From the NCBI GenBank assembly GCA_005116835.1, contig SWDM01000013.1:62001-126000 (forward strand): 64,000 nucleotides of DNA, written 5' to 3'. Made by a program: the position numbers and the translations under genes. The stretch is from Nitrospira sp. (GTDB taxonomy: Bacteria; Nitrospirota; Nitrospiria; Nitrospirales; Nitrospiraceae). A model generated the notes under the pieces. The model did not search any database and was not told the DNA's origin. It was given only the letters and a program-made list of their open reading frames with translations. Of this stretch, positions 1,622 through 58,362 are shown one piece after another. How positions within the stretch are numbered: the first letter of the stretch is position 1; each line of letters opens with the position of its first letter.

Positions 1622-1715
1622 TAGGCTGAAGGGGTTCAGGCTGAAGGCTGAAGGCCGGAGTTCGAAGTTCCGAAACCTTCGGCCTGAATCCCTTCAGCCT
1701 GAATCCCTAAGGAAG
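1622..1715. repeat. Intergenic repeat family A
   Basis: GGCTGAAGGGGTTCAGG words on the left and their reverse complement on the right form an inverted repeat around a variable centre. It starts 6 bp after the dehydrogenase stop codon. Confidence 0.8.
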
Positions 1716-1721
1716 GGGCTT

Positions 1722-3023
1722 CTACAACCGCCAGTAGTTGAGCGTTTTAGGTAGGTCCTCCGGCTCTAACAGGCATTTCACGTCGATCACCACTCCCTCC
1801 CACTGGCTGCGGAGAGGTTTGAGCAACGATGGAATCCCCATGTCCGCATAGGACCGATGAGCGACTGCAATGACCAGCCCGTCGATATTTTTCAGTTCGT
1901 CCCACTTGCTCAAATGTATCCCGTATTCGGCGACCGCCTCTTCCGGCGACGCGACCGGATCGTGCACCAGCACTTGGACGCCATACTCCTGCAACTCTCG
2001 AATAATGTCCGGCACCCTGCTATTGCGTAGATCCGGCACATTTTCCTTGAAGGTGAGCCCCAAGACGGCCACCTTGAGATCGTTGACCGGCCGAGCCAGA
2101 TCGCTCAACCGCTTCATCGTCTGCTCCGCCACAAACTTGCCCATGCCATTGTTGATACGCCGGCCCGCGAGAATGACCTGGGGATGATAGCCGACCGATT
2201 CGGCTTTACTTGTCAAATAATACGGGTCGACTCCGATACAATGCCCGCCGACCAATCCAGGAGAAAACTTGAGAAAGTTCCACTTGGTGCCGGCGGCCTC
2301 TAAGACCGACTTGGTATCGATCCCGAGCCGATGAAAGATGAGAGCCAACTCATTCATCAGCGCGATGTTCAAATCCCGCTGCGTATTCTCGATCACCTTC
2401 GCCGCTTCCGCCACCTTGATACTGGGCGCCCGATGGATCCCTGCCTTGACCACCAGCTCATAGGTCTTGGCGACAATCTCCAGCGATGCACTGTCCTGGG
2501 CGGATACCACCTTGATGATAGTTTCCAGTCGATGTTCCTTATCGCCTGGATTGATGCGTTCTGGAGAATAGCCCAGCTTAAAGTCGACTCCACACTTCAT
2601 CCCGGAGGCCTGTTCAAGGATAGGTTGACAAACTTCTTCCGTGGCGCCCGGGTAGACCGTCGACTCGAAGACTACGATCGATCCGGGAGACAGATTGGCG
2701 CCGATCAGTTCAGATGATTTGCGTAGCGCCGTCAAGTCCGGCTGCAGGGCCTCATTAATCGGCGTGGGCACGGCGACGATGATAAAATCTGCCGCTTTGA
2801 GTTCGCTCGGTTGAGATGTGTATTGAACGTCCGTGGCTTTCAGATCCTCATCTGACACCTCACCGGTATGGTCAATTCCCTTTTGTAACTCCGCGATCTT
2901 GGCTTTGTTGATATCGAATCCGATCACTCGCTGCTGCTTCCCGAACGCAACAGCAATCGGCAGACCCACATAGCCAAGTCCCACGACGGCAATTTTTCGC
3001 GCGCGATCTTTCTTCTGTGCCAT
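1722..3023 (-). CDS. Nucleotide-sugar 6-dehydrogenase (TviB/WbpO-like)
   Basis: The enzyme oxidises a UDP-N-acetylhexosamine to the uronic acid using two NAD+. The N-terminal Rossmann motif AVVGLGYVGLP and the segment RVIGFDINKAKIAELQ resemble the TviB/WbpO branch more than WecC or WbpA. The catalytic cysteine is in GGHCIGVDPYYL, and the C-terminal UDP-binding domain contains GLTFKENVPDLRNS. The ATG at 3023 has GGGGAGG five bases upstream and gives 433 aa, the normal family length; the longer frame to 3077 is unlikely. It precedes the export proteins on the same strand. Substrate (UDP-GlcNAc or UDP-GalNAc) cannot be told from sequence. Confidence 0.93.
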   Translation of the reverse strand: MAQKKDRARKIAVVGLGYVGLPIAVAFGKQQRVIGFDINKAKIAELQKGIDHTGEVSDEDLKATDVQYTSQPSELKAADFIIVAVPTPINEALQPDLTALRKSSELIGANLSPGSIVVFESTVYPGATEEVCQPILEQASGMKCGVDFKLGYSPERINPGDKEHRLETIIKVVSAQDSASLEIVAKTYELVVKAGIHRAPSIKVAEAAKVIENTQRDLNIALMNELALIFHRLGIDTKSVLEAAGTKWNFLKFSPGLVGGHCIGVDPYYLTSKAESVGYHPQVILAGRRINNGMGKFVAEQTMKRLSDLARPVNDLKVAVLGLTFKENVPDLRNSRVPDIIRELQEYGVQVLVHDPVASPEEAVAEYGIHLSKWDELKNIDGLVIAVAHRSYADMGIPSLLKPLRSQWEGVVIDVKCLLEPEDLPKTLNYWRL

Positions 3024-3154
3024 GATGCCTCCCCAGCGGTTTTGACCAAGAATGGCAGAACCTAGGATGTCAGTCAATGAAATCGAGTGATTTCGGCGCT
3101 ACCCCATTATTACTGCGTGGGAGGCAACAGGTAAAACGATATGCATTCAATCAT

Positions 3155-3448
3155 CTAACCCACCTTCTTCATTTCGCTCGCCAACATGTCGTTAATCAAC
3201 GATTGATACGGCACCTGCCTCTTTGTCGCAACGGCCCTGAGCCAGCGAAGCACCTTGGGATCGAGACGGATGGCAATCAGTTGCCTCGGTTCATCTCCCA
3301 ACGGGGGACGCCCTACCCGGCGCATTGAAGCCAATTGCTCGTCAGTCAGCGGGGGAATGTCTGAGTAATCAATTTTCCGCTTTTTGATAGCGCTTGTTTT
3401 CTTTGCGATTCGCCAGCCTTCCACTGATGAGTCTGATCGTTTTTTCAT
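3155..3448 (-). CDS. brnA: BrnA-type antitoxin
   Basis: The 97-aa protein has the BrnA pattern: a basic N-terminus, IDYSDIPPLTDEQL, then a ribbon-helix-helix-like region (GRPPLGDEPRQLIAIRLDP) and a helical tail. BrnA neutralises the BrnT ribonuclease and represses its own operon. The ATG at 3448 has AAGGAG nine bases upstream and lies inside the 3' part of the broken brnT gene, overlapping it by 80 bp in another frame. With the toxin inactive, this antitoxin appears orphaned but still intact. Confidence 0.8.
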   Translation of the reverse strand: MKKRSDSSVEGWRIAKKTSAIKKRKIDYSDIPPLTDEQLASMRRVGRPPLGDEPRQLIAIRLDPKVLRWLRAVATKRQVPYQSLINDMLASEMKKVG

Positions 3449-3656
3449 GGCCGCGGCTCCTTCTTGTATAGACGATGACGAGCAGATTTCAGGAAACTGA
3501 TTTCGCTAATCTGTATCGGCGTTCTTCCTTTGCCGAATACCCAAGGTCCTCGCCGTCTAATCCTGCGGGGTCAAAGAATGCTCTGCTTGCTTACTCAAAA
3601 GAGACTCCGTGCTTGCCCTCATTACTGTCTGCCTTCTTGGAATCCCACTCGAACAT
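3369..3656 (-). pseudogene. brnT: BrnT toxin, broken by two in-frame stops
   Basis: Reading from the ATG at 3656 gives MFEWDSKKADSNEGKHGVSF, the typical start of BrnT ribonuclease, then a TAA. The same frame continues with a BrnT-like middle (SAKEERRYRLAKSVS), a TGA, and NLLVIVYTRRSRGHEKTIRL followed by ISGRLANRKE, the usual BrnT C-terminus, ending at a TGA at 3369. The whole gene is thus present in one frame with two nonsense codons and some missing core residues. It is not expected to make active toxin. Confidence 0.8.
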
Positions 3657-3713
3657 CGCATTATGTATATACTTAACTCGGTCGATTCGTAAACCTCGGC
3701 TCAGCCGTTGGGA

Positions 3714-3745
3714 AAAGGGATTCAGGCTGAAGGTTGAAGGTTTGG
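3714..3745. repeat. Intergenic repeat family A (half copy)
   Basis: A single arm, GGGATTCAGGCTGAAGG type, upstream of the brnT remnant and next to a family E copy. Confidence 0.6.
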
Positions 3746-3754
3746 ACGGGAAAC

Positions 3755-3830
3755 AGGGACAGGCGCCGGCGGGGACTGTACCACACCGGGACTGTCCTTC
3801 TTCTCAGCCGGAGCCAGCCACCCTCGGCTC
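3755..3830. repeat. Intergenic repeat family E (diverged)
   Basis: GGGACAGGCGCCGGCGGGGA and the following ACTGTCC resemble the palindrome found at 9912 and 11368, but with a broken stem. Confidence 0.5.
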
Positions 3831-3857
3831 CGCGCACTGGTCATCGCCCATGCTGAG

Positions 3858-3900
3858 CGCCAAAATGAAAAGGCCGGCCCCCTTGCGAGGACTGGCCCTG
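3858..3900 (-). terminator. Intrinsic terminator, repeat family D copy 1
   Basis: On the minus strand GGGCCAGTCCTCGCAAGGGG pairs with the following GCCGGCC, then TTTTCATTTT. It lies about 145 bp beyond the stop codon of the TPR lipoprotein gene, with a family A copy in between. The same module recurs at 7645 and 8719. Confidence 0.7.
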
Positions 3901-3917
3901 CTTTTCCGATTCTCTGT

Positions 3918-4041
3918 TGAGGGGTTCAGGGGTAAAGGCTGAAGGGATTCAGGCTGAAGGCTTACATGTCAGGAACTTCGAACTCCGACCTTCGGCCTTA
4001 ACCCCTTCAGCCTTTACCCCTAGCTTAGCCCCTTCAGCCTG
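3918..4041. repeat. Intergenic repeat family A
   Basis: Inverted-repeat copy beginning about 4 bp after the stop codon of the TPR lipoprotein gene. Confidence 0.8.
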
Positions 4042-4043
4042 TT

Positions 4044-6329: not shown

Positions 6330-6348
6330 AGCAATGAAACTCCTGCTG

Positions 6349-6448
6349 GTTGATTTAGTTTGTTTGGTCTGTTTGGTTCATTTGGTTCATCCGGTTAGTT
6401 CCGCTCAACCAAATCGCCAAACAAACCAACTAAACAAAATAAACCAGG
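6349..6448. repeat. Intergenic repeat family B
   Basis: Left arm of 9-nt words (TTTGGTCTG, TTTGGTTCA), a loop GGTTAGTTCCGCTCAACC, and a right arm of complementary words (CCAAACAAACC). It lies just upstream of the TPR gene start. Confidence 0.85.
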
Positions 6449-6507: not shown

Positions 6508-6684
6508 AGGGGTTCAGGCTGAAGGGATTCAGACTGAAGGCTAAGGGAATAGGCTGAAGGCTAAGGACACAGGCTGAAGGGGTTCAGACTGAAGGTTAGA
6601 GGTCGGAGGTCGAAGTTCCGAACACTTCAGCCTACCGATTTCCGCCTGTACCCCTTCGGCCTGAACCCCTAGCCTTCACCCCTT
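6508..6684. repeat. Intergenic repeat family A (expanded)
   Basis: Several GGCTGAAGG/GGTTCAG words, a variable centre, and complementary words. The right end runs into the last codons of the PEP-CTERM gene at 6669, giving its Gly-Glu-Gly end and TAG stop. Confidence 0.8.
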
Positions 6685-7351: not shown

Positions 7352-7463
7352 CTACTCAGGTAGATAGGCTGAAGGGGTTCAGGCTGAAGGTTGAAGCGAT
7401 CAGACATCCAACTTTCAGTCTGAACCCCTTAACCCCTTCGGCCTGAACCCCTGAGTAGCTACC
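7352..7463. repeat. Intergenic repeat family A
   Basis: Inverted repeat closed by CTACTCAGG and CCTGAGTAG outer arms; lies upstream of the 7334 gene start. Confidence 0.75.
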
Positions 7464-7644: not shown

Positions 7645-7690
7645 CCCGTCAAAATAGAAAGGGCCAGTCCCCTTGCGAGGACTGGCCCTG
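7645..7690 (-). terminator. Intrinsic terminator, repeat family D copy 2
   Basis: On the minus strand a perfect 10-bp stem (GGGCCAGTCC and GGACTGGCCC, loop TCGCAAGG) is followed by TTTCTATTTT. It ends transcription from the PEP-CTERM gene at 7755..8459. Confidence 0.85.
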
Positions 7691-7720
7691 CTTTTTCGAT
7701 TCTCTACGACTCAGGTAAAT

Positions 7721-8718: not shown

Positions 8719-8760
8719 TGAAGGAAAATAAAAAGGCCAGCCCCCTTGCGAGGACTGGCC
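8719..8760 (-). terminator. Intrinsic terminator, repeat family D copy 3
   Basis: Minus-strand GGCCAGTCC and GGGCTGGCC arms followed by TTTTTATTTTCC. It follows the PEP-CTERM remnant at 8921 through a family A copy, the same order as at 7645-7806. Confidence 0.8.
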
Positions 8761-8793
8761 CTGCTTGTCCGATTCTATTCGACTCAGGTAGAT

Positions 8794-8913
8794 AGGCTGA
8801 AGGGATTCAGGCTGAAGGCTGAAGTGTTCGAACATCCGACCTTCAGTCTGAACCCCTGAATCCCTTCAGCCTGTGCCCACAGCCTTACCCCCTGAACCCC
8901 TTCAGCCTAAACA
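8794..8913. repeat. Intergenic repeat family A
   Basis: Inverted repeat between the D terminator and the PEP-CTERM remnant. Confidence 0.75.
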
Positions 8914-8920
8914 CCTGTTT

Positions 8921-9788: not shown

Positions 9789-9911
9789 CAGCTGGAGTAA
9801 GCCCCCTGCTAACCATCGCTGCCACCGTCATACGAAACTGCGAAGGGGTAAGGACTATAGTCCTCACCCCTTCCGCTCATTAAGTCAGCTCATTATTCCC
9901 AAGGAAGAGAA

Positions 9912-9952
9912 CAAGGGACAGGCACCGCCGCAGACGTCGGAGCCAGTCCCCC
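9912..9952. repeat. Repeat family E palindrome between convergent genes
   Basis: GGGACAGGCACCGCCG and CGGAGCCAGTCCC form a long imperfect stem. It sits between the PEP-CTERM stop (9788) and the prsR stop (9968) and could terminate either transcript, although it has no clear T-run. Confidence 0.55.
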
Positions 9953-9967
9953 AGCGCCACGCATAGG

Positions 9968-11356: not shown

Positions 11357-13560
11357 CTTTGCTCCAAGGGGACTGGCTCCGCCGTCTGCGGCGGTGCCTG
11401 TCCCCGTCTGAAACTGAAGGCTGAGGGCTGGGGGCTGAAGGCTGAAGGCTGAAGGCTGAAGGCTGAAAGCTGAAGAGTTTGGGACTTTGACCTCAGGCCT
11501 TCGGAGAGTGGCAGTTCAATCCTCACCTGAGTTCCTTGTCCCTGCTTACTCCTGATTTCGATCGTCCCCCCATGCGCTTCTACAATCTGCTTGCACTGGT
11601 AAAGTCCAATCCCAAGCCCGCCTGGCCGGCTCGATTGCGACGGTCGAAACAACGATTCCAGTATGGATGAAGGAATTCCACAACCTGTATCCTCAACCGT
11701 CACCACGACGGAACCGCCGGATTCGCCGATTCTGATTGAAAGATCCCCCTCTAGGCCGATCGCTTGTTTGGCATTCAGGATCACATTGAGTAACACTTGA
11801 TGGACCTGATCCTTCACGGCTAGAACTGGCTGAGCTATTCCTCCCGTGATTTGGAGCCGTACCCGCTCCTCTCCCCTCATGGGTGCAATAATCCCATCGA
11901 TCAGCGCAGGGATATCCACCAATTCAGGCGCCTCGGTCAGGACAGGCTTTACAGATGCGAGGGATAGCTTGCTCATGAGCGATGTCATTTTCGCCGCCGT
12001 GTCCGTCACCGTCCTCATAGCCGACTCCTGAAAGGCTGGGTCACGGCCATGACGCTCGGCATTCTGAGCCACGAGCGATAGCCTTGCCGCTAGATTCTTC
12101 AGGTCATGTAGGCAAAACACGGAAAATCGATGGAGCGCTTCCAGTTGCGCAGACGCCTGTCGATCTTCTGCCAATTTGGCATGAGAGAGTAAGGCGCCGA
12201 CGTGATGGGATATTCCACGGAGCAGGTCACAGTCGTCCGTTCCATAGGTTTCCCCGTGGAGTGGCCGCCCCAAGGCGATGAAGGCCGTGAGTTGGCCCTG
12301 GGCGCGAATGGGAAAACAGAGCGCCGTCCCGGACGCCATCAAGGGATCTGAGCTGTCTGTTATCACAACCGGCTCATCCTCTTTCAGGAGCCGCGCGATT
12401 ACAGGATGGGAGAGCTCCAGGGGAAACGATTCTTTCTCACTGGTCATCGAACGGATTCGGTAAAATTGGCGATCGGATTCACGACACGACCAAATCGACA
12501 TGGATGTGGTGGGAAATGTCTTGATGAGCAGATCCAACAGGCGATCCATGATCGCCTCTTTGCTCGCCGCCTGCTCAAAGGCCTCCGTGACTTGTAACCA
12601 CTGGGCTCGGTAGTCGTGCTTAGATCGATAAAAATTCCTGGTGAGAAACCGTCGGACATCGGCGCGCACCGTTTTTGAGAAGGCCAGGACGACCAGCCCG
12701 ACCAGGGCTCCGAATACCACCACGACGCTGAGCCCCAGCCCCAACGGCTGATTCGTCCGGCGAAGCCATTCGCCGATCACCCCCACCGCCAGTAAATACA
12801 GCCCAATGACGATAAAGGTCACTGAGCCGAACAGAGCCTGTTGGGAGACATAGGCATTGACGAAGACATCGCGCAGATGGGTCCGTCCCAACCCATAGGC
12901 GGTCAAACAGAGCGCCATGGCCGTCACGATGCTTCCAATCAAAACCTGATTCTCCTGCCAGACTGGAAGCAGGAGCATCTGGCTGGCTTGGTAGATTTGG
13001 TAACCGGCCAGCCCCCCTAACCCAATCACCATGAATTTCAACTTATGACGAACCGGTTCCTGGCTAGCGCGCAAGACTAACTCCAGTTGTGCCAGCGCGA
13101 GAACCATGCCGATCACAATAAAGACATAGGGCATGCGTCCCAATACGGTGAGAGCAATCGCTGTCCCGGCATCCTCAAGAACCTTCCACTCGAAAATCTG
13201 TCCGATCACTACGAAACCAGTCAGCAACAAGCCTAAGCATCCCACGATGCGAGCCCGCCATAAGGCAGAGCGATTACTGCTCCGCTGAACCGGATTCAGG
13301 AATCCCAGGCCGACATAGAGCAACGCGGCTGGTTCGACAAGCTCTGCAACCATTGCGGCCACACGCCACCCTAGAGCATGGGATTCGACGAACAGACCTG
13401 CAGCATTCGCCAAATGGGCCAAGGCGATCGTTCCCAGCAACAGTGCGATACTCCGGTGCAAGGAACTCCCTGGCCGTATAACAAGCAGCGTACAGGCCAT
13501 CACGCCGGCCATCGCCGCGACGAGAAAAGCCGCTATTGAAAACCAAGTCGGAATCATCAT
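11353..13560 (-). CDS. prsK: PEP-CTERM system sensor histidine kinase PrsK
   Basis: The 735-aa protein begins with about eight membrane helices (roughly residues 5-290), followed by a GAF-like region and a kinase core: H-box FCLHDLKNLAARL, N-box VLLNVILNAKQAIG, and the ATP-lid motifs EDTGCGIP and GGLGIGLYQCKQIV. This is the PrsK architecture; it should phosphorylate PrsR. After the expected end (VRIELPLSEG) come about 45 residues that are simply translated repeats A and E (LQLSAFSLQPSAFSPQPSAF and RRGQAPPQTAEPVP). The last codon overlaps prsR, so the tail keeps the two genes translationally coupled. Confidence 0.92.
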   Translation of the reverse strand: MMIPTWFSIAAFLVAAMAGVMACTLLVIRPGSSLHRSIALLLGTIALAHLANAAGLFVESHALGWRVAAMVAELVEPAALLYVGLGFLNPVQRSSNRSALWRARIVGCLGLLLTGFVVIGQIFEWKVLEDAGTAIALTVLGRMPYVFIVIGMVLALAQLELVLRASQEPVRHKLKFMVIGLGGLAGYQIYQASQMLLLPVWQENQVLIGSIVTAMALCLTAYGLGRTHLRDVFVNAYVSQQALFGSVTFIVIGLYLLAVGVIGEWLRRTNQPLGLGLSVVVVFGALVGLVVLAFSKTVRADVRRFLTRNFYRSKHDYRAQWLQVTEAFEQAASKEAIMDRLLDLLIKTFPTTSMSIWSCRESDRQFYRIRSMTSEKESFPLELSHPVIARLLKEDEPVVITDSSDPLMASGTALCFPIRAQGQLTAFIALGRPLHGETYGTDDCDLLRGISHHVGALLSHAKLAEDRQASAQLEALHRFSVFCLHDLKNLAARLSLVAQNAERHGRDPAFQESAMRTVTDTAAKMTSLMSKLSLASVKPVLTEAPELVDIPALIDGIIAPMRGEERVRLQITGGIAQPVLAVKDQVHQVLLNVILNAKQAIGLEGDLSIRIGESGGSVVVTVEDTGCGIPSSILESLFRPSQSSRPGGLGIGLYQCKQIVEAHGGTIEIRSKQGQGTQVRIELPLSEGLRSKSQTLQLSAFSLQPSAFSPQPSAFSFRRGQAPPQTAEPVPLEQR
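11368..11476. repeat. Repeat families E and A inside the prsK 3' end
   Basis: The E palindrome (11368-11405) and about seven GGCTGAAGG words of family A (11408-11476) are in frame with prsK and encode its tail. The E hairpin ends directly before the prsR ribosome site. Confidence 0.85.
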
Positions 13561-13571: not shown

Positions 13572-13756
13572 ATGCGTGAAGCGTCGTTCGTGAAGCGTAT
13601 TTCGTTTCAGAGTTGGACCCTTCACACTTCACCCCACGGACAATTCCAATTCCGATAATTCAACATTCCCAATGTCGTCCCTCTCTTCACCCCTTACTTC
13701 TCACTTCTTACTTCAAACATTTACCCACTTACCACTCACAACTAACCACTTCCCCC
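13572..13756. repeat. Intergenic repeat family C (simple words)
   Basis: Degenerate words such as GCGTGAAGCGT, ACAATTCCAATTCC and CACTTACCACTCACAAC fill the spacer between the FemAB-like gene end and prsK. Similar text occurs at 18324, 21380 and 56700. Confidence 0.55.
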
Positions 13757-14815
13757 TCACCCAATATGCCGATAGAGAAGCCTGCCTGCTAACGTGAGCG
13801 CGCTGTTAGGAAGACGCGCAAACCCCTCTTTTGCCAGCCATCCTTTTACCTGGTCAAAGGATGAAGACGCGGTCGCGGCGGGGCAGCGCCATGTGGTCAG
13901 AGTTGAACTCGCTGCCGACCAGTGTTCCTTGAACGCAATCAAGCCTGAATTATCAATATCTGAACGTCCAAAATCGAACCCTTCTGCCCCGATTGCTTTG
14001 GCCTCTCTAATCACATGCCACAAGAGCATCGGTGTGCCGCCGAAATTATTGTAACGGGTGTCAGATCCACTATATTTGTAGACTATTTTCTTTCCGTGTC
14101 TAAGGGTCAAGATGCCTGCTACAGGCCTCCCTGCCTTTGAAGCAATCCTAATACACATATCATCACCCATACAGGTCGCGAGGTTCCGAAACCATTCGAT
14201 CGGTTGCGGGGGAATGCGGTGTCGTGCCCGAGTCAGCTTGAGCAGAGCAAACAGCTGTTGGATCAAGGATTCACTTCGACCCACTTCATAACTGAGCGAC
14301 TCTCGCACCGCGCGACCGATCCTGTGCTGGACACCTTTCTTACTAAATCCTTTCTGCAACGTGTCAAGACTGGGGCGAAGATCGAGCTGGTGCAGACAAT
14401 AGGTCTTAGCCTCGCTAAAACCGTTGCGATAATCCAAGAGGGAGTCTGATGACCGAATTTCCACATACCTCCATCGTTCGTGTTTCCTCAGCGATTCGGC
14501 ATAAACACAAATTGTTCCGAATTCACCAATATCGTCAACGAGCGGCTCACAGTGATCCGAAAAAGGCAACGACACAAGCCGGTCGCCGGTCAGCCAACTA
14601 CGAACGACGCAAAACAGTACGGCATTCGTGAGTTCTTGGGATGCCGGGGACGTCGTGAAGGCGACCGGTTCATACCCGTAGGTTGTCTGCAATGCGCGCA
14701 ACCAGCCGCGAGTATGAAACACCGAGGCCTTTGGGTGTCGGGCAATGAGCTCAGGCCAGCGATCATCCTGTAGTGGATCAATCGTATAGACGCTCATGCT
14801 CGGATAAGTACTCAC
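13757..14815 (-). CDS. FemAB-like protein, PEP-CTERM system associated
   Basis: The 352-aa protein has the GNAT-type double fold of FemAB enzymes, with VFHTRGWLRALQTTYGYEPV near the N-terminus and the C-terminal segment GAEGFDFGRSDIDNSGLIAF typical of this group. FemAB enzymes transfer amino acids from aminoacyl-tRNA to cell-wall or other acceptors. Members of this subgroup are found in exosortase/EPS loci, where their substrate is unknown. The frame opens with GTG at 14815, overlapping the exosortase stop (GTGA); an ATG at 14797 is an alternative start. The overlap implies co-translation with the exosortase. Confidence 0.87.
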   Translation of the reverse strand: MSTYPSMSVYTIDPLQDDRWPELIARHPKASVFHTRGWLRALQTTYGYEPVAFTTSPASQELTNAVLFCVVRSWLTGDRLVSLPFSDHCEPLVDDIGEFGTICVYAESLRKHERWRYVEIRSSDSLLDYRNGFSEAKTYCLHQLDLRPSLDTLQKGFSKKGVQHRIGRAVRESLSYEVGRSESLIQQLFALLKLTRARHRIPPQPIEWFRNLATCMGDDMCIRIASKAGRPVAGILTLRHGKKIVYKYSGSDTRYNNFGGTPMLLWHVIREAKAIGAEGFDFGRSDIDNSGLIAFKEHWSAASSTLTTWRCPAATASSSFDQVKGWLAKEGFARLPNSALTLAGRLLYRHIG

Positions 14816-15807: not shown

Positions 15808-15810
15808 ACA

Positions 15811-15922
15811 ATCTGGTCTATTTGGTTTGTTTGGTTCATTTGGTCTATTTGGTTTGTCTGATTTAGCCGGTTAGTCTGGTTCAACCAAAGGCACAAAACA
15901 AACCAAACCAACGAGTCAAACC
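15811..15922. repeat. Intergenic repeat family B
   Basis: TTTGGTTTG/TTTGGTTCA words, loop GGTTAGTCTGGTTCAACC, then complementary words. It begins 4 bp upstream of the exosortase start. Confidence 0.85.
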
Positions 15923-15960
15923 AATTTCGTTTCACGTCTAACGTTTCACGCTTCCCGTTC
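15923..15960. repeat. Intergenic repeat family C
   Basis: TTTCGTTTCACG and CGTTTCACGCTT words immediately after the sugar transferase stop. Confidence 0.6.
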
Positions 15961-17080: not shown

Positions 17081-17090
17081 CAGACCTCCG

Positions 17091-17186
17091 GTCTTGTTTG
17101 TTTGGTTGATCTGGTTTGTTTTGTTTATTTGGTTGAACTGATTGAACCAGATGAACCAAACAGACCAAACAAACCAAATAAACCGG
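17091..17186. repeat. Intergenic repeat family B
   Basis: Inverted repeat of TTGGTTTGT-type words around GGTTGAACTGATTGAACC; starts about 10 bp upstream of the sugar transferase start. Confidence 0.85.
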
Positions 17187-17192
17187 CTGTTG

Positions 17193-18203: not shown

Positions 18204-18218
18204 GGCATTCAACCCCTC

Positions 18219-42370: not shown

Positions 42371-42844
42371 TCACCCCGTCCGATCAGCGATTACCAGCCA
42401 CCAATGACAGGGCATTTTCAGGTCGCCAAATCGTCCAGTCAGTAAGAACCACAAGGCTGTTCGGGTCGGGAGATAGACGCGCTTGATGTAATGCCCTGGG
42501 TCGGCTCGGTCGTTGTCAATATCTCCGCCTTCAGGGCTGGTACCCGGAAGCTCTTCGGTGAATCCCTGAATCTTCAATCTCGCTGTGTAGAGACGATCGC
42601 GCCAATATCGATCTGGCACACTAAACGTGCCGTACACATGATGCGGTCCCTGCCAAGGTTGAACCACCGTCTGTGTCGCGCGAAACCCGTATTGCCCGGC
42701 TACAACCGGCGCTTCTGAATGACAGTCGGTGAGCGGCGGCATATTGAGTAGGACTGTCGCTGTTGCCAGGAGCACTGACAGGATGCAGAAAAGAATAAAC
42801 CAGGCAGGTTTGTTGATTTGGTTTCTTTGGTTTGTTTGGTTCAT
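42371..42844 (-). CDS. Hypothetical membrane-anchored protein whose start lies in repeat B
   Basis: After a polar start MNQTNQRNQINKPA comes one membrane helix (WFILFCILSVLLATATVLLN) and a periplasmic part of about 110 residues with no recognised domain (VAGQYGFRATQTVVQPWQGP). The first ATG (42844) and the first ten codons lie inside a family B repeat, and no ribosome site is visible. A TTG start further back would be entirely repeat-coded. It may be a real small EPS protein with a repeat-captured start, or it may start elsewhere. Confidence 0.5.
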   Translation of the reverse strand: MNQTNQRNQINKPAWFILFCILSVLLATATVLLNMPPLTDCHSEAPVVAGQYGFRATQTVVQPWQGPHHVYGTFSVPDRYWRDRLYTARLKIQGFTEELPGTSPEGGDIDNDRADPGHYIKRVYLPTRTALWFLLTGRFGDLKMPCHWWLVIADRTG

Positions 42845-42911
42845 TTGGTTAGTTTCGTTCAACCCAATAACCAAACAGACCAAATAAACAAAACAAAACA
42901 AACAAGATCAA
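42806..42911. repeat. Intergenic repeat family B
   Basis: TTTGGTTTGTTTGGTTCATT words, loop GGTTAGTTTCGTTCAACC, and complementary words ending at the TGA stop of the aminotransferase gene. Confidence 0.85.
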
Positions 42912-44107: not shown

Positions 44108-44128
44108 TCTTGGCTCCTCTTTTAGGTG

Positions 44129-44193
44129 GATAGGGGTTCAGACTGAAGGGGTTCAGGTTGAAGACTAGGGACATAGGCTGAAGGGGTTCAGGC
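44129..44193. repeat. Intergenic repeat family A (half copy)
   Basis: GGGGTTCAGACTGAAGGGGT words just upstream of the aminotransferase start, next to a B copy. Confidence 0.65.
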
Positions 44194-44195
44194 GG

Positions 44196-44297
44196 TCTTG
44201 TTCATTTGGTCTATTTGGTTTGTTTGGTTTATTTGGTTGAATCAGACTAATCGGAGAAACCAGATGAACCAAATCAACAAAACAAACCAGATAGACC
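44196..44297. repeat. Intergenic repeat family B
   Basis: Inverted repeat of TTTGGTTTG-like words with a longer, less paired loop (AATCAGACTAATCGGAG). Confidence 0.8.
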
Positions 44298-44315
44298 TAT
44301 CTTCAGCCTGGATCC

Positions 44316-44852: not shown

Positions 44853-44862
44853 GGGTAAATTC

Positions 44863-44974
44863 TCAGGGGTTCAGGCTGAAGGGGTTCAGGTCGGAGATCG
44901 GAGGTCCGGACACTTCAGCCTTCAGCCTCCGTCCGAAACCTTCAGCTTGAACCCCTTCAGCCTGTGCCCCTAGC
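44863..44974. repeat. Intergenic repeat family A
   Basis: Inverted repeat between the four-helix-bundle protein stop and the acetyltransferase start; CCCCTAGCCCTC at its right end gives the TAG stop at 44970. Confidence 0.8.
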
Positions 44975-45329
44975 CCTCATCGCGCAAGGCACGAATCAAG
45001 CTATTCAACACCTTCTCGGTTTCTACAATCTTGGGTTCAAGCAGCAATGAATCCTCGTTGCGCAAGAAGCCCAACCGCTTCGACAAATTTAATTGATAAT
45101 GTAGTTCCCTCAATGATCCGAAGGCGATATTGAGAAACCTGAGATACTCTGCCTCGCTGTCACGAGCGCAACCTTCTACGATATTCGAAGGAACTGACAC
45201 TGCTGCACGTCGTATTTGAGACGTCAGCCCGAACAACTCTTCTTTCGGAAACCCTGCGGATGCCCGATATACCAACAGGACTACTTCGTCAGCCAACTCA
45301 AATACCCGAAGCTGCGTGTGGTCGCGCAT
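44970..45329 (-). CDS. Four-helix-bundle protein (S23/IVS-encoded family)
   Basis: The 119-aa protein fits the family first found in 23S rRNA intervening sequences: LRVFELADEVVLLVYRASAG, FGLTSQIRRAAVSVPSNIVE, then EYLRFLNIAFGSLRELHYQL. It is predicted to form a pentamer of four-helix bundles; biological role unknown. Here it stands free of any rRNA and is framed by family A repeats on both sides. The last residues (DEG) come from repeat A. Confidence 0.88.
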   Translation of the reverse strand: MRDHTQLRVFELADEVVLLVYRASAGFPKEELFGLTSQIRRAAVSVPSNIVEGCARDSEAEYLRFLNIAFGSLRELHYQLNLSKRLGFLRNEDSLLLEPKIVETEKVLNSLIRALRDEG

Positions 45330-45336
45330 GCTGAAC

Positions 45337-45430
45337 TCCTGAACCCCTTCAGCCTGTATCCCTAGTCTTCTGCCTGAATCCCTTCAGCTTCTTCTCGGAA
45401 CCTTCAGCCTGAACCCCTTCAGCCTATCAA
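45337..45430. repeat. Intergenic repeat family A
   Basis: TGAACCCCTTCAGCC words repeated three times between the NusG-like stop and the four-helix-bundle gene. Confidence 0.75.
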
Positions 45431-45446
45431 CCTGAGGCGTTGCGCC

Positions 45447-45947: not shown

Positions 45948-46446
45948 TCCGAACTCCTAATTCGCGAGCGTGAAACGCGGGAAATGCGCGACAGGCGCGA
46001 CTCGCAAAGAAGAAACAGCCGGCTCGTCTCGCTTTTCCCGCCAGTCCCGCGCGTCTCGCCCATTAAATGGGCTGCCGCCATTCCGGTGCTAATCCGGTTA
46101 TCGGTGAATAGCTTTCATCCCAGGCATTCAGGCCGAAGGCTGTTAGGCTGAAGGTGTGATTTCCGGACACTTCGGCCTGAACCCCTTCAGCCTGTGCCCC
46201 TAGCCCTCGGCCTGAACCCCTTCAGCCTTCGACCCCTCGTATCTTTCGCGTCTCGCTCGTCCCGCTTTTCTCGCGAGTCTCGCGGGAACAATGCAGGCTA
46301 ACACGAGACCGTGTATGGGCCTAGGATATCAGGGGTTTCTGAACGTAACCGGCGTGGTCTATTTGGTTTGTTTGGTTTGTCTTGTTTCTTTGGTTGAACC
46401 AAATGAACCAAATCAACCAGATGAACCAAATAAACCATCTGAATGG
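45948..46446. other. 499-bp repeat-filled spacer
   Basis: It carries CTCGC/TTTCGCG words (for example CGCGACAGGCGCGACTCGC), a family A copy and a family B copy, and no gene. Confidence 0.6.
46125..46232. repeat. Intergenic repeat family A
   Basis: GGCCGAAGGCTGTTAGGCTG and later CCTGAACCCCTTCAGCC words. Confidence 0.7.
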
Positions 46447-50814: not shown

Positions 50815-50900
50815 ATATCAACCTATGGCTTGCCTAGACTATGCGCTCACGTCTACCGAATCACCACGATAGGGTGAAAATGTCCACCAGTCTGTATTTT

Positions 50901-51000
50901 TCATTTGGTCTATCTGGTCTCTTTGGTTAATCTAGTTTGTTTGTTCATCTGGTTAGTTTCGGTCAACCAAATAGACCAGACAAACCAAATAACCCAAAAA
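50901..51000. repeat. Intergenic repeat family B
   Basis: TTTGGTCTATCTGGTCTCTT words, loop GGTTAGTTTCGGTCAACC and complementary words, between the PilZ-like gene and wza. Confidence 0.85.
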
Positions 51001-51391: not shown

Positions 51392-51492
51392 GTTTAGGTG
51401 TGTAGGCTGAAGGGGTTGAGGCTGAAGGCCGACGTGTCCGGACCTTCATCCTCCTACCTTCAGCCTGTGCTCGTAGCCTTCAGCCTCCACCT
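51392..51492. repeat. Intergenic repeat family A
   Basis: Copy upstream of the PilZ-like gene in a 389-bp spacer that also holds the leader of the divergent LuxR-type gene. Confidence 0.7.
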
Positions 51493-51743
51493 GTTTCGTT
51501 CTCATTCCTGTACTGGCACTATAGGCGTGACGAGCAATAGCGACAATACCGACGATGTAGGACTCGCTGCCCGAAAGGAGGGTGCTGTTGACTTTAAAAG
51601 CTGAAAGTGTTGACTCCCCCAAAAGGGTTAGGTAGTATTTCCACTCTAAAGTTACCTTCTTTCTCGTTGTGTGTTAGCTTAGCTGAACACATTGAATTGT
51701 CCAGAATTGTGCCTCTTATGACTTCGAAAGTATCCAGCCACCC

Positions 51744-52352: not shown

Positions 52353-52361
52353 TCGGGTCGA

Positions 52362-52542
52362 GGGATACAGGCCGAAGGGATTCAGGCTGAAGAGACCAGG
52401 CTGAAGGGATTCAGGCCGAAGGGATTCAGGCCGAAGGGATTCAGGTCGAAGAATCGAAACTCCGCCATCCGACCTTCAGCCTCTGTCCGAAACCTTCAAC
52501 CTGAACCCCTTCAGCCTGTGTCCCTAGCCTTCAGCCTAATCC
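52362..52542. repeat. Intergenic repeat family A (expanded)
   Basis: Four tandem GGGATTCAGGCCGAA words and a complementary right arm begin 10 bp after the LuxR-type gene stop. Confidence 0.8.
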
Positions 52543-52651
52543 GCCACAGTATCCGTGTTAAAAATACCATAGTGCGTTATCTGCAACACAGACCCACTTC
52601 GGAATTACTCAATTTTATCGTTTTTAATCAATAACTTACAGGCGTAAGCTT

Positions 52652-52682: not shown

Positions 52683-53177
52683 ATGAAGAACCTTCGCTTA
52701 ATATTAGTGGGTATTCTGGTTTCAGTGGCTGGACTCCAGTTTAGCCATCCAGTTCAAGCAGCTCCCATCGACAACGGAAGCTTCATGAGCCTTTGGAGCA
52801 CCTACTCCCATTGCCAAGACGCCACCGATATTGAGCAGCTGAAAGCAGATGCCTCCACCCTGACGAATGTGGCAAACCGCGCCCTGACGCAAGATGGATT
52901 TGTTCTCCCCCTGCCAAGCAAGATTGAACAGTTTGTATCGACTCCAGCTGCTAGGTTTGCCGTGGACGTGAAGGCTATGGCTGCTGCCTGTTCCTTAAAA
53001 GCAGGGTCCGCTGCGGTCGAAGCAGGAAAGTTCGAAGTTGCAAAAGATCTTCTCAAAACGATTCTGATCTACGAGCCCCAATCCGAGTATGCTTACTACG
53101 CATCGCAGGCAAAGGCTCTGCTTTCTGAGCTTGAGACAGCCACCGTTCAGGTCGTAACCCTTCGCGTCCCCGAATAA
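52683..53177 (+). CDS. Small secreted protein, unknown function
   Basis: The 164-aa protein has a signal peptide (RLILVGILVSVAGLQF, ending HPVQA) and a helical mature part with two cysteines (SHCQDA and AACSLKAG) and a TPR-like C-terminal helix pair (GKFEVAKDLLKTILIYEPQS). No family is recognised. It is preceded by a strong sigma-54 site and may belong to the PrsR regulon. A family A repeat starts immediately after its TAA. Confidence 0.7.
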   Translation: MKNLRLILVGILVSVAGLQFSHPVQAAPIDNGSFMSLWSTYSHCQDATDIEQLKADASTLTNVANRALTQDGFVLPLPSKIEQFVSTPAARFAVDVKAMAAACSLKAGSAAVEAGKFEVAKDLLKTILIYEPQSEYAYYASQAKALLSELETATVQVVTLRVPE

Positions 53178-53346
53178 GGGGTTCAGGCTGAAGGGATTCA
53201 GGCTGAAGTATCCGGACCTCTGAACTCCTACCTTCAGCCTAACAACCTTCGGTCTTCAGCCTGTTCTCGGAACCTTCAGCCTGACCCCCTATCTTAGCCT
53301 TCAGCCTAAGCCCCCCTTCAGCCTGAACCCCTTCAGCCTGGGCCCC
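53177..53346. repeat. Intergenic repeat family A (expanded)
   Basis: Fills the whole gap between the secreted protein and glgA; GGCTGA at its right end provides the glgA stop codon. Confidence 0.82.
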
Positions 53347-54832
53347 TAACCAGCGACCCAAACAGCCGGTCGTAGGTATCAGCCGAACGGGCCCAAGACA
53401 CATCCGTTTTCATCCCTGCCTCAACCAGTTGTTCCCACCTCGATTGGTCCTGATACAACGCTATAGCCTGACGTAATACCAGCAGAAGAGCCTCTGCCTT
53501 GTCCTCTTCAACATGAAACCCCGTCGCCCCTCCCGCTTCCCGAACCTGTGAGGTGAGAGGTATGACGGTATCTGCCAACCCGCCCGTTTTCCTCACCACT
53601 GGAACCGTTCCATAACGGAGGCTGTAGAGCTGACTCAGCCCGCATGGCTCATACCTCGACGGCATCACAATCATATCTGCTCCGGCTTCGATACGATGGG
53701 CTAGCCCTTCATCGAAGCCGATACGCAGTCCAATTCTAAGTGGATAGCGGGCCTGGAGGATTTTAAATTTTGCTTCAAGCTCTGGCTCTCCGGTTCCCAA
53801 AATCACCAACTGCAGATCCATGGCCATCAATTGCGGGACGATGGCCTCGACGAGATCCAAGCCCTTCTGTGGCGTCAATCGGGCAATCACACTGAGAAGC
53901 GGAACCGCTGTCTCCGGCAACTGAAACTCTCGTTGCAGCATCCGTTTGCAGAGCTGCTTCCCTGAACGATCAGATACCGAGTAGTTGGCCGGCAGATAGG
54001 AGTCGGTTTCTGGATTCCATCGAACGGTATCGATACCGTTCAGAATTCCGCTGGGTAAGTTCGCTCGATTGCGCAATACGCCTTCGAGCCCAAACCCAAA
54101 TTCCGGCGTGAGGATTTCCTGCGCATAGGTGGGGCTGACCGTCGTCACGTAGTCGGCAAATACAATTCCCCCCTTGAGCAAATTCACGGATCCATAATAC
54201 TCAAGGCCAGCGGGATTATACAGCGATGGCGGCAACCCTGTTTTCTCAAATTGATTTTCGGGAAAGAGTCCTTGATATCCGACATTGTGCAGTGTCAGTA
54301 CCGTGCGCACCCCCTGTGCCTCTGGTCGATCTCGATCGATGGTCTTGAGATACACCGCGCACAACGCTGCTTGCCAATCATGGAGATGGAGGACATGGGT
54401 TTCCCATTGGCATGAAGCTCGAAGGTACGCCATCACTTTGATCGTGGCGCGGCAAAGAAATGAAAACCGGTCAAGGTTATCAGGGTAGTCGGCCCCCTGA
54501 TCCTGATAGAGGCCAGGCCGGTCGTACAAGGCCTCGTTCCGGATCGTCCATACCCGCACGCGACCGTCACCTTCGCCCACAGGGATGACGTCTTCCTCTA
54601 TCAGCGTGTCTACAAGCCCCTGCGGTGTCGGCACATGGAGCCGACAGACGGAACGAAAGGATCGTCCTGACTCGCTCAAACAACGGTAGTGTGGGAGCAG
54701 AAGAATGACGTCGTGGCCAAGTTTTGCCAACTCAATCGGCAATGCGCCTGCGACATCGGCGAGCCCGCCGGTCTTGGCATAGGGGACCGCCTCGGAGGCG
54801 ACCATGAGCAGGTTCAGGGGATGCTGCGTCAT
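53333..54832 (-). CDS. glgA: Glycogen synthase
   Basis: The 499-aa GT5 enzyme transfers glucose from ADP-glucose. It has the ADP-glucose site KTGGLADVAGALP (Lys20), HVLHLHDWQAAL, LSVIARLTPQKGLDLVEAIV, and MPSRYEPCGLSQLYSLRYGT with the catalytic Glu. Its ATG overlaps the lipoprotein stop (ATGA). The last four residues (RGPG) and the stop come from the adjoining family A repeat. Glycogen metabolism seems unrelated to the EPS block. Confidence 0.95.
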   Translation of the reverse strand: MTQHPLNLLMVASEAVPYAKTGGLADVAGALPIELAKLGHDVILLLPHYRCLSESGRSFRSVCRLHVPTPQGLVDTLIEEDVIPVGEGDGRVRVWTIRNEALYDRPGLYQDQGADYPDNLDRFSFLCRATIKVMAYLRASCQWETHVLHLHDWQAALCAVYLKTIDRDRPEAQGVRTVLTLHNVGYQGLFPENQFEKTGLPPSLYNPAGLEYYGSVNLLKGGIVFADYVTTVSPTYAQEILTPEFGFGLEGVLRNRANLPSGILNGIDTVRWNPETDSYLPANYSVSDRSGKQLCKRMLQREFQLPETAVPLLSVIARLTPQKGLDLVEAIVPQLMAMDLQLVILGTGEPELEAKFKILQARYPLRIGLRIGFDEGLAHRIEAGADMIVMPSRYEPCGLSQLYSLRYGTVPVVRKTGGLADTVIPLTSQVREAGGATGFHVEEDKAEALLLVLRQAIALYQDQSRWEQLVEAGMKTDVSWARSADTYDRLFGSLVRGPG

Positions 54833-55703: not shown

Positions 55704-55728
55704 CTTTACAAACTCCTTCTTGCAAGCC

Positions 55729-55834
55729 TAGGGGCACAGGCTGAAGGGGTTCAGGCTGAAGCGTTCGGACCTCCTACCTTCAGCCTGAACCCCTTCGGCC
55801 TGTACCCCTAATCTGAGCCTGAACCCCTTCAGCC
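55729..55834. repeat. Intergenic repeat family A
   Basis: Inverted repeat between the recO stop and the DUF971 start. Confidence 0.78.
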
Positions 55835-55845
55835 CATCTACCTCC

Positions 55846-56598: not shown

Positions 56599-56607
56599 GG
56601 AGGAGAT

Positions 56608-56790
56608 CCGTGAAACGTAAACCGTAAAACGTGAAAAGTTTCTGAGGAAGAGTGCTCGGCAGTCCTACGTGTCACGCTTCACGCATCATCTTGTTCCCTC
56701 ATCCAACTCTGACAATTCCACATTCACCACTCCTCATTCCCACTGCGCCTCACCCCTCACGCGTTTCACGCCTCACGTTTTACGGTTCCT
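56608..56790. repeat. Intergenic repeat family C
   Basis: TTTCACGCCTCACG, CGTAAAACGTGAAA and the phrase TGACAATTCCACATTCACCA, the last shared with 21393. Confidence 0.65.
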
Positions 56791-56791
56791 G

Positions 56792-58258
56792 CTAGCGAAG
56801 ATAATCCATGAACAGCGTAGCGAGGGAGAGATAAATAGTAATACCCGTGATGTCGTTGGCCGTCGTTACAAAGGGACCGGCCGCAACGGCAGGATCCACA
56901 TTCATCCGTTTCAGCAAAATAGGCATAAACGTCGCCATACTGGTCGAAACCATGAATGCGATAATCAGCGAGAGCCCCACGACCATGCCGAGAAACTCTT
57001 GATGCCAAATCCACCCGACGATCGTGAGAATCACGCCGCAGGCGAGCCCCATCAGGAGTCCAACTTTGATTTCCCTGAAAAACACGGCGCGCACATCTGT
57101 CAGCTCGATCAGCCCTGTCGCCAGCCCTCGTATAATGAGGGTCGAAGACTGGAGGCCTACGTTACCCCCCATGGCAGCGATGACCGGGATAAAACTGACG
57201 ATGGCCACCACTTCCTGAATCGTGTATCGAAACTCCCACAGAATCGCGCCTGAAAACAGGCTGCCGACGAGATTGGTAAAGAGCCATGGGAGCCGATGTT
57301 TTGCCGACGCCAGGCTGGAGGACTTCGAGACCGAATCCTCTTCGATCGCGCCGGCCATCTTGAGCATGTCCTCGGTCGCTTCTTCACGGATGACGTCCAC
57401 GACGTCGTCCACCGTGATGATACCGACCAGTCTGGTATCGCTGTCGATGACCGGAATCGCGAGCAGGTTGTAACTCGCCACCTGACGGGCGACCTCTTCC
57501 TGGTCCATGTCGACTGTCACGCTGATCACGTCTCGCGTGGCGATATTTTTCAGCGGTGTCACGGGAGGAACCGTCAGCAGCTGCCGGAGAGAGAGCACCC
57601 CGACCAATCGCTCATCCTTGTCGGTCACATAAATATAGAACACCATCTCCGCATCCGTCGCCAACTGGAGACGCCGGATGGCATCTTGCGCCGTCGCATC
57701 TTCCGGAAGCGCGAAAAACTCCGTCGTCATGATGCCGCCGGCCGTATCCTTCGGATACTTCAGCAAGTCGGCAACTTCCGTGGAATCCTCCGCCCTCATG
57801 AGCGAGAGGATTTCTTTGACCCGTTCTTCCGGCAGAACACCGAGGAGGTACGCCACATCGTCGGGGCCAAGATCTTTGATCAGCCAGGCAATATCCGAGT
57901 GCAGCAGGTCCGCCAGCACCTGATTGATGCTGTCGCTGTCGAGCTCGCTCAGCACTTGGCCTCGCTTCGACTCGCCTCGCACCAGTTCGAACACTTCCCG
58001 TTTTTCTTTCGGGGAAGACAGATGCATAATCACTTGCGCCACGTCGGCCTGGTGCATCCGGCCCAGCATCTTCGCAAGGTTGGTGATCGCACCCCGATGC
58101 AACAGCCGCTGCACCGACAACAGCACGATGTCGAACTTCGTCCGGCCCCGATCGGGCTGGTCACGGGCCACGTCGCGGAGAAGATCTTTGTCCGCTGGGC
58201 GAGGACGCGGATCCACCGGGTTCGTTTCTGGCATACGTTCTGTCGGCTGCATTGTCAC
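56792..58258 (-). CDS. mgtE: Magnesium transporter MgtE
   Basis: The 488-aa protein has the MgtE N domain (about 50-160), paired CBS domains (TTEFFALPEDATAQDAIRRL; PVIDSDTRLVGIITVDDVVD), and five membrane helices with the pore signature GNVGLQSSTLIIRGLATG. It is a Mg2+-gated channel in the inner membrane. The start is a GTG at 58258 or an ATG at 58252. Confidence 0.93.
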   Translation of the reverse strand: MTMQPTERMPETNPVDPRPRPADKDLLRDVARDQPDRGRTKFDIVLLSVQRLLHRGAITNLAKMLGRMHQADVAQVIMHLSSPKEKREVFELVRGESKRGQVLSELDSDSINQVLADLLHSDIAWLIKDLGPDDVAYLLGVLPEERVKEILSLMRAEDSTEVADLLKYPKDTAGGIMTTEFFALPEDATAQDAIRRLQLATDAEMVFYIYVTDKDERLVGVLSLRQLLTVPPVTPLKNIATRDVISVTVDMDQEEVARQVASYNLLAIPVIDSDTRLVGIITVDDVVDVIREEATEDMLKMAGAIEEDSVSKSSSLASAKHRLPWLFTNLVGSLFSGAILWEFRYTIQEVVAIVSFIPVIAAMGGNVGLQSSTLIIRGLATGLIELTDVRAVFFREIKVGLLMGLACGVILTIVGWIWHQEFLGMVVGLSLIIAFMVSTSMATFMPILLKRMNVDPAVAAGPFVTTANDITGITIYLSLATLFMDYLR

Positions 58259-58296
58259 ACGCTAAGCCTAAAAGTCTGAATGTCTTAAAGTCAGAA

Positions 58297-58362
58297 AGTC
58301 GTCAAGTCATCATGTCTTAGCTCGAGACGTGACGACTTTATGACATTATGGACTTGACGACT
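58297..58362 (-). repeat. Hairpin of AGTC words after era
   Basis: AGTCGTCAAGTC (58297-58308) and GACTTGACGACT (58351-58362) are perfect reverse complements; ATCATGTC and GACATTAT extend the stem inward. It begins three bases after the era stop and could serve as a terminator without a T-run. The adjacent AAAGTCTGAATGTCTTAAAG has the same words. Confidence 0.7.

Follow-up and report, generated by a model that had tools for sequence, protein, structure and literature searches.

Intergenic gaps that carry hairpin repeats are continually rewritten between related species of Nitrospira

How do several families of short, degenerate words that share no sequence come to fill the spacers of one bacterial genome, mostly as inverted repeats? 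The question is raised by 64,000 nt of DNA from Nitrospira sp. (assembly GCA_005116835.1, contig SWDM01000013.1; G000:C5:62001-126000 in our numbering), the whole of which we refer to as the window, and for which a first-pass annotation, made from the letters alone, had listed families A to E and a further AGTC set in most intergenic gaps, with slippage on hairpin templates as a guess at their origin. The reading that we favour, with some reserve, is that the repeats are several dispersed families of small palindromes, which are remodelled by slippage of their words and which replace one another or nest within one another. The gaps that carry these hairpin repeats keep being rewritten between related species.

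The window belongs to a genome of 3.94 Mb in 24 contigs (G000), of which 800 kb, around one-fifth, was analysed in full and the remainder by pattern searches only. Our own codon-usage gene caller gave 464 spacers of at least 50 nt in this sample, with limits that are approximate, start codons most of all. The comparison set holds 61 genomes, 32 from the genus Nitrospira and 29 from outside it, with species represented by one genome each. Inverted repeats were expressed as the z of a spacer's score against 40 dinucleotide shuffles, a value above 5 being taken as strong, and families were called with hand-made patterns, which miss diverged copies of B (three at the spacer before ispD).

Word families and their place in spacers

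The repeats of the annotation are real, in that they are enriched in spacers over shuffles, gene fragments and reversed controls. In the window a word family occurs in 26 of 38 spacers and an inverted repeat of z>5 in 15, and the phrase 'most intergenic gaps' is correct there, but it does not carry over to the larger sample, where some family was called in 173 of 464 spacers. Strong inverted repeats were found in 106 of these 464 spacers and in one of 464 gene fragments, and scores above all 40 shuffles in 144 and 14, respectively. The exact words of the window lie mostly between genes, with spacer and gene counts of 48 and 7 for GGCTGAAGG, 23 and 1 for GGGGTTCAGG, 10 and 0 for TTTGGTTTG, 12 and 2 for TTTGGTTCA, 9 and 1 for CGTTTCACG and 3 and 0 for CACTTACC, against a coding fraction of 0.77 in the window by our gene calls. 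Genome-wide, GGCTGAAGGGGTTCAGG has 98 matches at one mismatch or fewer and its reversed control none.

Family by family, the numbers of spacers, shuffled spacers and gene fragments with a call are 34, 1 and 2 for A, 48, 0 and 0 for B, 49, 3 and 6 for C1, 19, 1 and 1 for F, and 20, 0 and 3 for J. The counts are softer, owing to a notable classifier background, for H (27, 6 and 5), C2 (10, 5 and 1), G (14, 3 and 3), K2 (4, 0 and 3), N (6, 0 and 2) and S (6, 1 and 0). The description of several sequence-unrelated families, mostly arranged as inverted repeats, stands, with the refinement that C comprises at least two families of 7-mers, C1 (CGTTTCACG) and C2 (CACTTACC). Across four sampled genomes, greedy clustering gave 35 clusters of 7-mers present in at least three spacers, some of which are perhaps split families or chance groupings.

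What the families have in common is the tandem word. Three or more tandem degenerate 7-nt words occur in 84 of 464 spacers, against 9.6 when shuffled and 6 of 464 gene fragments, and tandem 9-nt words in 43, against 0 and 3; a strict test for inverted arrays was passed by 16 spacers for 7-nt and 10 for 9-nt words. Autocorrelation over 95 hairpin spacers shows excesses of 21 standard deviations (sd) at lag 9, 17 at lag 14, 16 at lag 7, 13 at lags 8 and 4, 11 at lag 18, 10 at lag 27, 9 at lags 13 and 22 and 8 at lag 15, among others, consistent with word lengths of 9, 7 and 7+8 nt. The best lag of a hairpin spacer was 9 in 26 cases, 7 in 12, 15 in 7, 18 in 4 and another value in 8, with none in 38; one was detected in 15 of 266 non-hairpin spacers. 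The B word, TTTGGTTNN, is well defined, and among 232 in-phase words T stands at position 1 in 225 and at positions 3 and 6 in 231 each, T or C stands at position 2 in 231, position 4 is variable and NN is TG, TA, CA or GA in 196. G033, a genome from another genus of the family of which 400 kb were sampled, has z>5 in 21 of 232 spacers, and the lag excess in 18 of these lies at 7, 14 and 21 (20, 16 and 11 sd), with none at 9; tandem 7-nt words were found in 58 of its 232 spacers and 9-nt words in 6.

Chance, low-complexity composition or an artefact of assembly can be set aside almost completely as the source of these patterns, given the shuffle, gene-fragment and reversed controls and the presence of the same hairpins at orthologous places in separately assembled genomes. 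Searched against Rfam, the repeats gave no match at gathering scores.

The directed tip of family B and the change of its arms

The strongest evidence on origin comes from B. In the 800 kb of G000 there are 55 merged B loci, most of which align on a single directed tip, GGTTAGTTTCGTTCAACC; 52 of the 55 match the tip core with both arms present, and among 60 raw clusters 41 have the left arm followed by the right, one has the reverse order and 18 are one-sided or complex. Most copies share the directed tip and so descend from one hairpin, and the notion that each B copy was built anew is not supported. Copy number differs widely between species. As the reversed B word resembles the B word itself (268 matches for this control against 407), the tip and its reversed control were used instead. 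At three mismatches or fewer the tip has 111 matches in G026, 78 in G000 and 0-2 in eight congeners, being found in 30 of 32 genus genomes; outside the genus one of 29 genomes has it, as two matches at three mismatches, and the reversed control gave 0 in all 61.

Family A is distributed in a similar manner, with 98 core matches in G000, 50 in G013, 43 in G026, 20 in G017, 16 in G005 and 0-7 in the other 27 congeners; its core was found in 23 of 32 genus genomes and once each in 2 of the 29 outside, against at most one reversed-control match per genome and strand. C1 arrays reach further than A or B: in a sample of 395 genomes of the phylum, 93 have them, and by our own table count 78 of these fall in the same family; in a few genomes outside the family, reversed-control matches are as many as C1 matches. 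Up to nine reversed-control matches were observed in some genomes of the phylum, G093, G100 and G122 among them, and these may carry a different heptamer family. Seven stretches of viral contigs hold an exact C1 array. Plasmid searches with one B and one F hairpin returned five records each, with F-type heptamer arrays on plasmids of Nostoc, Kovacikia, Legionella antarctica, Erwinia and Burkholderia stagnalis, although in the stretches read these arrays are direct rather than inverted and may reflect the chance sharing of one heptamer.

How the arms change can be followed at the spacer before ispD, where the same B hairpin with the same flanks occurs in G026, G000 and G017, its right arm, measured outward from the tip, being 16, 34 and 43 nt long. 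The steps of 18 and 9 nt are exactly two and one 9-nt words, and whole-word steps in arm length at an orthologous site point to slippage. The other half of the proposal, the hairpin template, fared less well. If one arm were copied from the other, arms of the same locus should match each other best, but the left arm scores 17.27 against the right arm's complement within loci and 16.62 between them (n=52, p=0.051), and eight tests of duplex energy, covering both genomes, both strands and different arm lengths, show no within-locus excess (p=0.13-0.82). The check for covariation of arms that the annotation had called for thus finds none in B, by alignment or by duplex energy, nor in an orthologous G hairpin considered below. 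The absence of co-variation argues against hairpin-templated copying; the two arms of B evolve independently.

These results bear on the possibility that every array was built where it stands, by slippage and foldback synthesis templated on the hairpin, so that loci resemble one another only through their word composition. The whole-word steps at one orthologous site would fit it, as would the very unequal arms that can occur (seen by eye in G013) and the loops of different C1 loci, which are barely alike by a blunt measure. Against it stand the tip common to most of the 55 B loci, which already makes it weak for that family, the arms of one B locus being no more alike than arms from different loci, and the conservation of the orthologous G loop over seven species. 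We regard such local building as quite unlikely.

Gain, loss and replacement at orthologous spacers

The same spacer often holds different hairpins in related species. Among 57 orthologous spacers of G000 and G026, 9 hold a shared family, 9 different families, 12 a family in one genome only and 27 none. With the 9 shared spacers set aside, occupied spacers still coincide more often than by chance (9, 6, 6 and 27; odds ratio (OR) 6.75, one-sided p=0.006), as they do between G000 and G012 (5, 18, 1 and 41; OR 11.4, one-sided p=0.018). The annotation had asked whether positions are conserved between strains; the same hairpins do recur at orthologous places, while unrelated families often stand there instead.

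Three spacers were sorted, for the most part by eye, across many genomes. The one behind mgtE was followed in 21 genomes and has nine loci with C1, four with C1 in which H or A is nested, one with B, two with J and five short ones without a word family (by eye); the start of the next gene was located at 19 of the 21, and two C1 loci are incomplete. Before ispD, 20 of 28 loci were counted, the other 8 having the same neighbour out of reach or an extra gene between, and B occurs at 11 (eight by pattern, three by eye), H at three, K2 at two, J/L-like palindromes at three (by eye) and nothing at one. The third spacer was examined at 19 loci from the 29 genomes with a match, the left neighbour being in view in 18, and holds a G-family hairpin at 8 of 19 (one incomplete), O at four, L at one, a remnant at one and 0-7 nt only at five. 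G026 is without the G hairpin, and the flanking words are joined there; as distant congeners have the hairpin, loss in G026 is the simpler reading. In seven of the G hairpins, a small set with few changes overall, 0 of 33 pairs are altered in both partners, and paired cells amount to 89.4%, as in shuffles.

Gain and nesting were seen in a similar way. A spacer of 39 nt in G000 and G012 measures 369 nt in G026, where the 39 nt are kept and palindromes stand on both sides of them, one holding B. Within the B hairpin of the ispD spacer of G023 (L196), near the tip, there is a palindrome with ends GGGAAGGTCTGATTAATTC and CTA(G) on both sides, by eye. Word-unit change of length, clean gain, likely loss and nesting have thus each been seen at single sites, and the standing of unrelated families at the same spacer in relatives has been shown, as have the shared tip and spread of B and the independence of its arms. 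Separately, L207 and 18 orthologous loci share a non-coding element that is conserved as GATCGCGTAAGACCTTCCGTG...GCGATCTTTTTTT or a close variant of it and lies up to 220 nt upstream of a gene without a Pfam match; it was recognised by eye in 19 of 20 loci, the twentieth having no upstream sequence, gave no Rfam match in the two loci tested (L207 and L209), and is possibly a small RNA.

A further explanation is that the hairpins are selected as structures at 3' ends (mRNA stabilisers, attenuators or terminators), for which any hairpin behind the stop codon would serve, whatever its sequence, so that unrelated hairpins become interchangeable. In 37 co-directional spacers of G000, the median distance of B is 12 nt from the upstream stop and 89 nt from the following start, and B is nearer the stop in 27 (Wilcoxon p=0.003). 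Nine of the ten window hairpins tested fold better than all of their shuffles, different families jointly occupy orthologous spacers, and some repeat is present at 19 of the 20 ispD loci with the same neighbours (partly by eye). The pairing evidence goes the other way, with no co-variation of arms in B and the 0 of 33 pairs in G, from only seven sequences. The bias towards the stop is not significant in G026 (24 co-directional loci, median 15.5 nt from the stop and 70.5 from the start, p=0.34), and at 5 of the 18 third-spacer loci with the left neighbour in view there are 0-7 nt and no hairpin. Strong inverted-repeat scores were found in 9 of 65 divergent spacers and 97 of 399 others; by family calls a depletion of divergent spacers was not upheld (21 of 65 against 152 of 399, p=0.41). 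On balance we consider that selection of this kind is unlikely to account for the repeats.

In a gap search of 147 orthologous gene pairs, seven rows with a long gap were found, none of them an insertion of A or of B alone; two are alignment-end effects, one has poor flanks, and the remainder are palindromes of types J, K and L (one event twice) and the G hairpin. J, K and L form a superfamily in G000 and G026 (for example at C5:146577 and C16:34140), with different ends around a core GAGGCGTAC..GTACGTTGAGG or close variants. They are bounded by terminal inverted repeats and their empty sites are clean, K once having CTAG on both sides (by eye), and they look like miniature inverted-repeat transposable elements (MITEs). 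One may ask whether the word hairpins are interchangeable inner parts of such frames, carried between conserved ends. In 4 of 29 pairs of J ends in G000 and 3 of 14 in G026, the J core is absent and C1, B or H words lie in its place; the J, K and L insertions have clean empty sites, and the same J right end stands behind B in one species but behind H in a second (by eye). Yet several of the pairs of J ends resemble chance pairs in coding-like sequence, most B loci are without a nearby J end, and the evidence covers B rather than A. J frames as general carriers of B were rejected on the ground that only a minority of B loci have J ends, and the frame explanation as a whole seems to us improbable.

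The reading that we favour is thus one of dispersed non-coding palindromes of about 50-200 nt, with arms of degenerate tandem words of 7, 9 or 7+8 nt. Most copies of a family would derive from one hairpin with a directed tip, as shown for B, with copy numbers that differ more than tenfold between species; arms would then gain or lose whole words by slippage and mutate independently, as seen at single sites, and whole hairpins would appear, vanish, nest in or substitute for unrelated hairpins at orthologous spacers, as has been seen. The spread may be REP/MITE-like or may occur by template switching at hairpins, which would explain both the nesting and the absence of sharp ends, and selection may act mainly by excluding hairpins from genes, with no host function required.

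Several observations weigh against this reading. No mobiliser was found, and neither a target duplication nor a transposase could be linked with A or B. G000 has three Y1_Tnp genes of the RAYT type (L267, L268 and L269), and a RAYT was rejected as the mobiliser, for their flanks of about 0.5-1.8 kb show other palindromes and no A or B (by eye). Outward-facing J ends flank 6 of 30 B loci in G026 and 3 of 55 in G000, against 8 of 179 and 5 of 349 control windows. Common descent is less well shown for the heptamer families; similarity of loops between C1 loci is 0.292 against 0.274 when shuffled, by a measure that is blunt (B loops reach only 0.437 against 0.392) and on a set that contains false loops. 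Finally, the joint occupation of spacers may partly reflect permissive spacers rather than targeting.

A broader idea, which we put forward as no better than tentative, is that in the Nitrospiraceae, and perhaps in many bacteria, a general process indifferent to sequence makes and spreads inverted arrays of 7- or 9-nt words. The next hairpin would enter at the tip of an earlier one, and unrelated families would in this way arise and displace each other at the same spacers. Were this true, the machinery and not any sequence would set the word length (lags 7, 14 and 21, without 9, in hairpin spacers of G033; 7 and 9 in G000 and G026).

The repeats of the window and their relatives elsewhere

By Pfam, the window contains an exopolysaccharide-type cluster followed by mgtE and enolase; there are no tRNA genes in the window. 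A histidine kinase of 735 aa (PrsK-like) is closest to proteins from metagenome-assembled genomes of Nitrospira, Nitrospiraceae and Nitrospirae (six loci, 62-72% identity), with the next lineages at about 30%, which marks the organism as a Nitrospira. The annotation's count of 10 B loci holds after the merging of split clusters. These hairpins lie at 6341-6446 (9-nt words TTTGGTTNN / NNAACCAAA, fold z -5.3), 15808-15930 (followed by C1 words, TTTCACG), 17085-17190 (filling its spacer, fold z -8.5), 18213-18300, 19045-19116, 21216-21295, 42806-42907, 44192-44300 (fold z -6.6), 46349-46445 (fold z -6.8) and 50894-51000. Its 'about 18' A loci is a fair figure, with 14 clusters at threshold and five weaker pieces near 3714, 7582, 7726, 19313 and 21328. 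Hairpins of A are found at 1623-1708 (RNA fold z -7.1), 3923-4042, 6508-6678, 7354-7460 (outer arms ACTCAGG/CCTGAGT, fold z -7.9), 8782-8917, 44861-44979, 46122-46244 (between H words, GTCTCGC/GCGAGAC), 51404-51494, 52361-52545, 53173-53347 and 55726-55845 (fold z -11.4), and A words without a partner arm at 11424-11500 (a GGCTGAA heptamer array on one side only), 44128-44197 (plus strand, a single arm adjoining B) and 45330-45441 (minus strand, right-arm orientation only). The plus-strand open reading frame at 3475-3942 terminates within the A repeat at 3923-4042, which supplies its stop codon and final residues.

C2 words occur at 13690-13757 (CACTTACC type), 18322-18410 and 21452-21520, the last with several other word families alongside, and C1 words (GTGAAACGT), with other words inserted, at 56599-56791 behind mgtE, the spacer followed over 21 genomes. 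Among the listed hairpins, the C1 stretch 56599-56730 folds no better than shuffles (137 of 200 as good). The terminator-like D hairpin has three copies of 52 nt, at 3862-3913, 7652-7703 and 8725-8776, with 88 and 94% identity to the reference copy, and the AGTC set, our family S, forms a hairpin at 58262-58364 (fold z -3.6). The E palindrome was given without coordinates; it could be a K-like palindrome at 1334-1488 or two Q palindromes (GCGCGCGTCCAACGAGG...GCGCGTTGCGCGAGCA) at 61620-61908, limits approximate, all recognised by eye. A K copy related to the first of these has a clean empty site. At about 9905-9960 and 11365-11410 there are GGGACAGGCACCGCC palindromes, similar by eye to the GGGGACAGGCTACTTT palindromes that flank the L268 Y1 gene. 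The region 23850-42760 is lower in G+C (0.46-0.52 in 2-kb steps) and has a word family, by a weak call, in 1 of 11 spacers, whereas in the rest of the window 25 of 27 have one; it is perhaps a recent acquisition that the repeats have yet to colonise.

The kind of repeat is already known, namely the inverted array of short words: fixed-length degenerate words stand in tandem in spacers and are paired in inverted orientation. Near-identical direct repeats with unique spacers, as in CRISPR, are not what is seen here, the repeats being degenerate and inverted. J, K and L share with MITEs their terminal inverted repeats and clean empty sites; A, B and C differ in having no identified duplication or partner transposon, no search for an autonomous transposon with the same ends having been made. 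REPs and REPINs have a GTAG or CGTC tag at one end of a palindrome of 20-40 bp. By eye, no such tag was found in the B alignment; a GTAG is present in CTGAGTAGTTAC, the end of some A copies, but on the side opposite to that of the GTAG of REPINs. Cyanobacterial STRR are built of tandem heptamer words. The annotation had judged the repeats to be unlike REPs, and this was right in part. Tandem words are not a feature of REPs in the parts of the accounts available to us (PMC3733652, PMC3116915), and the flanks of the RAYT-type genes of G000 show no A or B. In placement, however, the two are alike, since REPs adjoin the 3' end of the upstream gene (PMC3733652), as B does in G000, and both are dispersed, multicopy palindromes of spacers.

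Closer relatives are found among heptamer and octamer arrays, of which the published accounts were likewise available in part. TAACTGA heptamers are scattered over Beggiatoaceae, cyanobacteria and Bacteroidetes, are mostly intergenic and have been discussed in terms of slippage (PMC4679880); they form direct arrays, the genome examined there having 169 sets and a single inverted repeat, whereas those of Nitrospira are inverted. In Geobacter metallireducens, octanucleotides (GTTGCTYN) or heptanucleotides (MTYCTGA) in tandem make up several multicopy families, with arrays on one strand paired with arrays on the other, and a role as IHF/HU sites has been guessed (PMC2700814). Its words differ from ours, three of its sets were called unique to that genome, and orthologous spacers, compared here, do not figure in the parts of that account available to us (PMC2700814). 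A Geobacter metagenome-assembled genome in our own set has a hairpin of heptamer words (GTTCAAA / CTTTGAACC) at L047:15027-15129, with an inverted-repeat z of 7.7, recognised by eye; it is the single such hairpin from our samples of Geobacter and other lineages, which were small. In Xanthomonas, tandem degenerate GGGAATC heptamers form inverted, convergent pairs of arrays in spacers, 70 in Xcc and 75 in Xac, mostly between the same genes and variable in length and sequence between the two species (PMC4692102). Nitrospira resembles Xanthomonas in these respects, but there a single G-rich family has been described and read as forming G-quadruplexes (PMC4692102).

For Nitrospira itself we did not find such repeats described, in a literature that was mostly non-subscription, beyond the appearance of Nitrospira moscoviensis in the palindrome-count table of RepRanger (PMC12306157, seen in part), nor have we seen described elsewhere the number of families per genome, words of 9 and 7+8 nt, nesting, or replacement at orthologous spacers. 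The spacers of such genomes are, as a caution, poor ground in which to seek conserved regulation. They would also permit a direct test of two questions, why so many bacterial repeats have a length of 7 nt and how small palindromes spread without a known enzyme. Inverted short-word arrays have so far been reported one or a few families at a time, with functions proposed ad hoc; in Nitrospira many unrelated families occur together in one genome, with 9-nt and 7+8-nt words, nesting and replacement, and 31 further genomes of the genus allow their gain, loss, change of word number and replacement to be traced.

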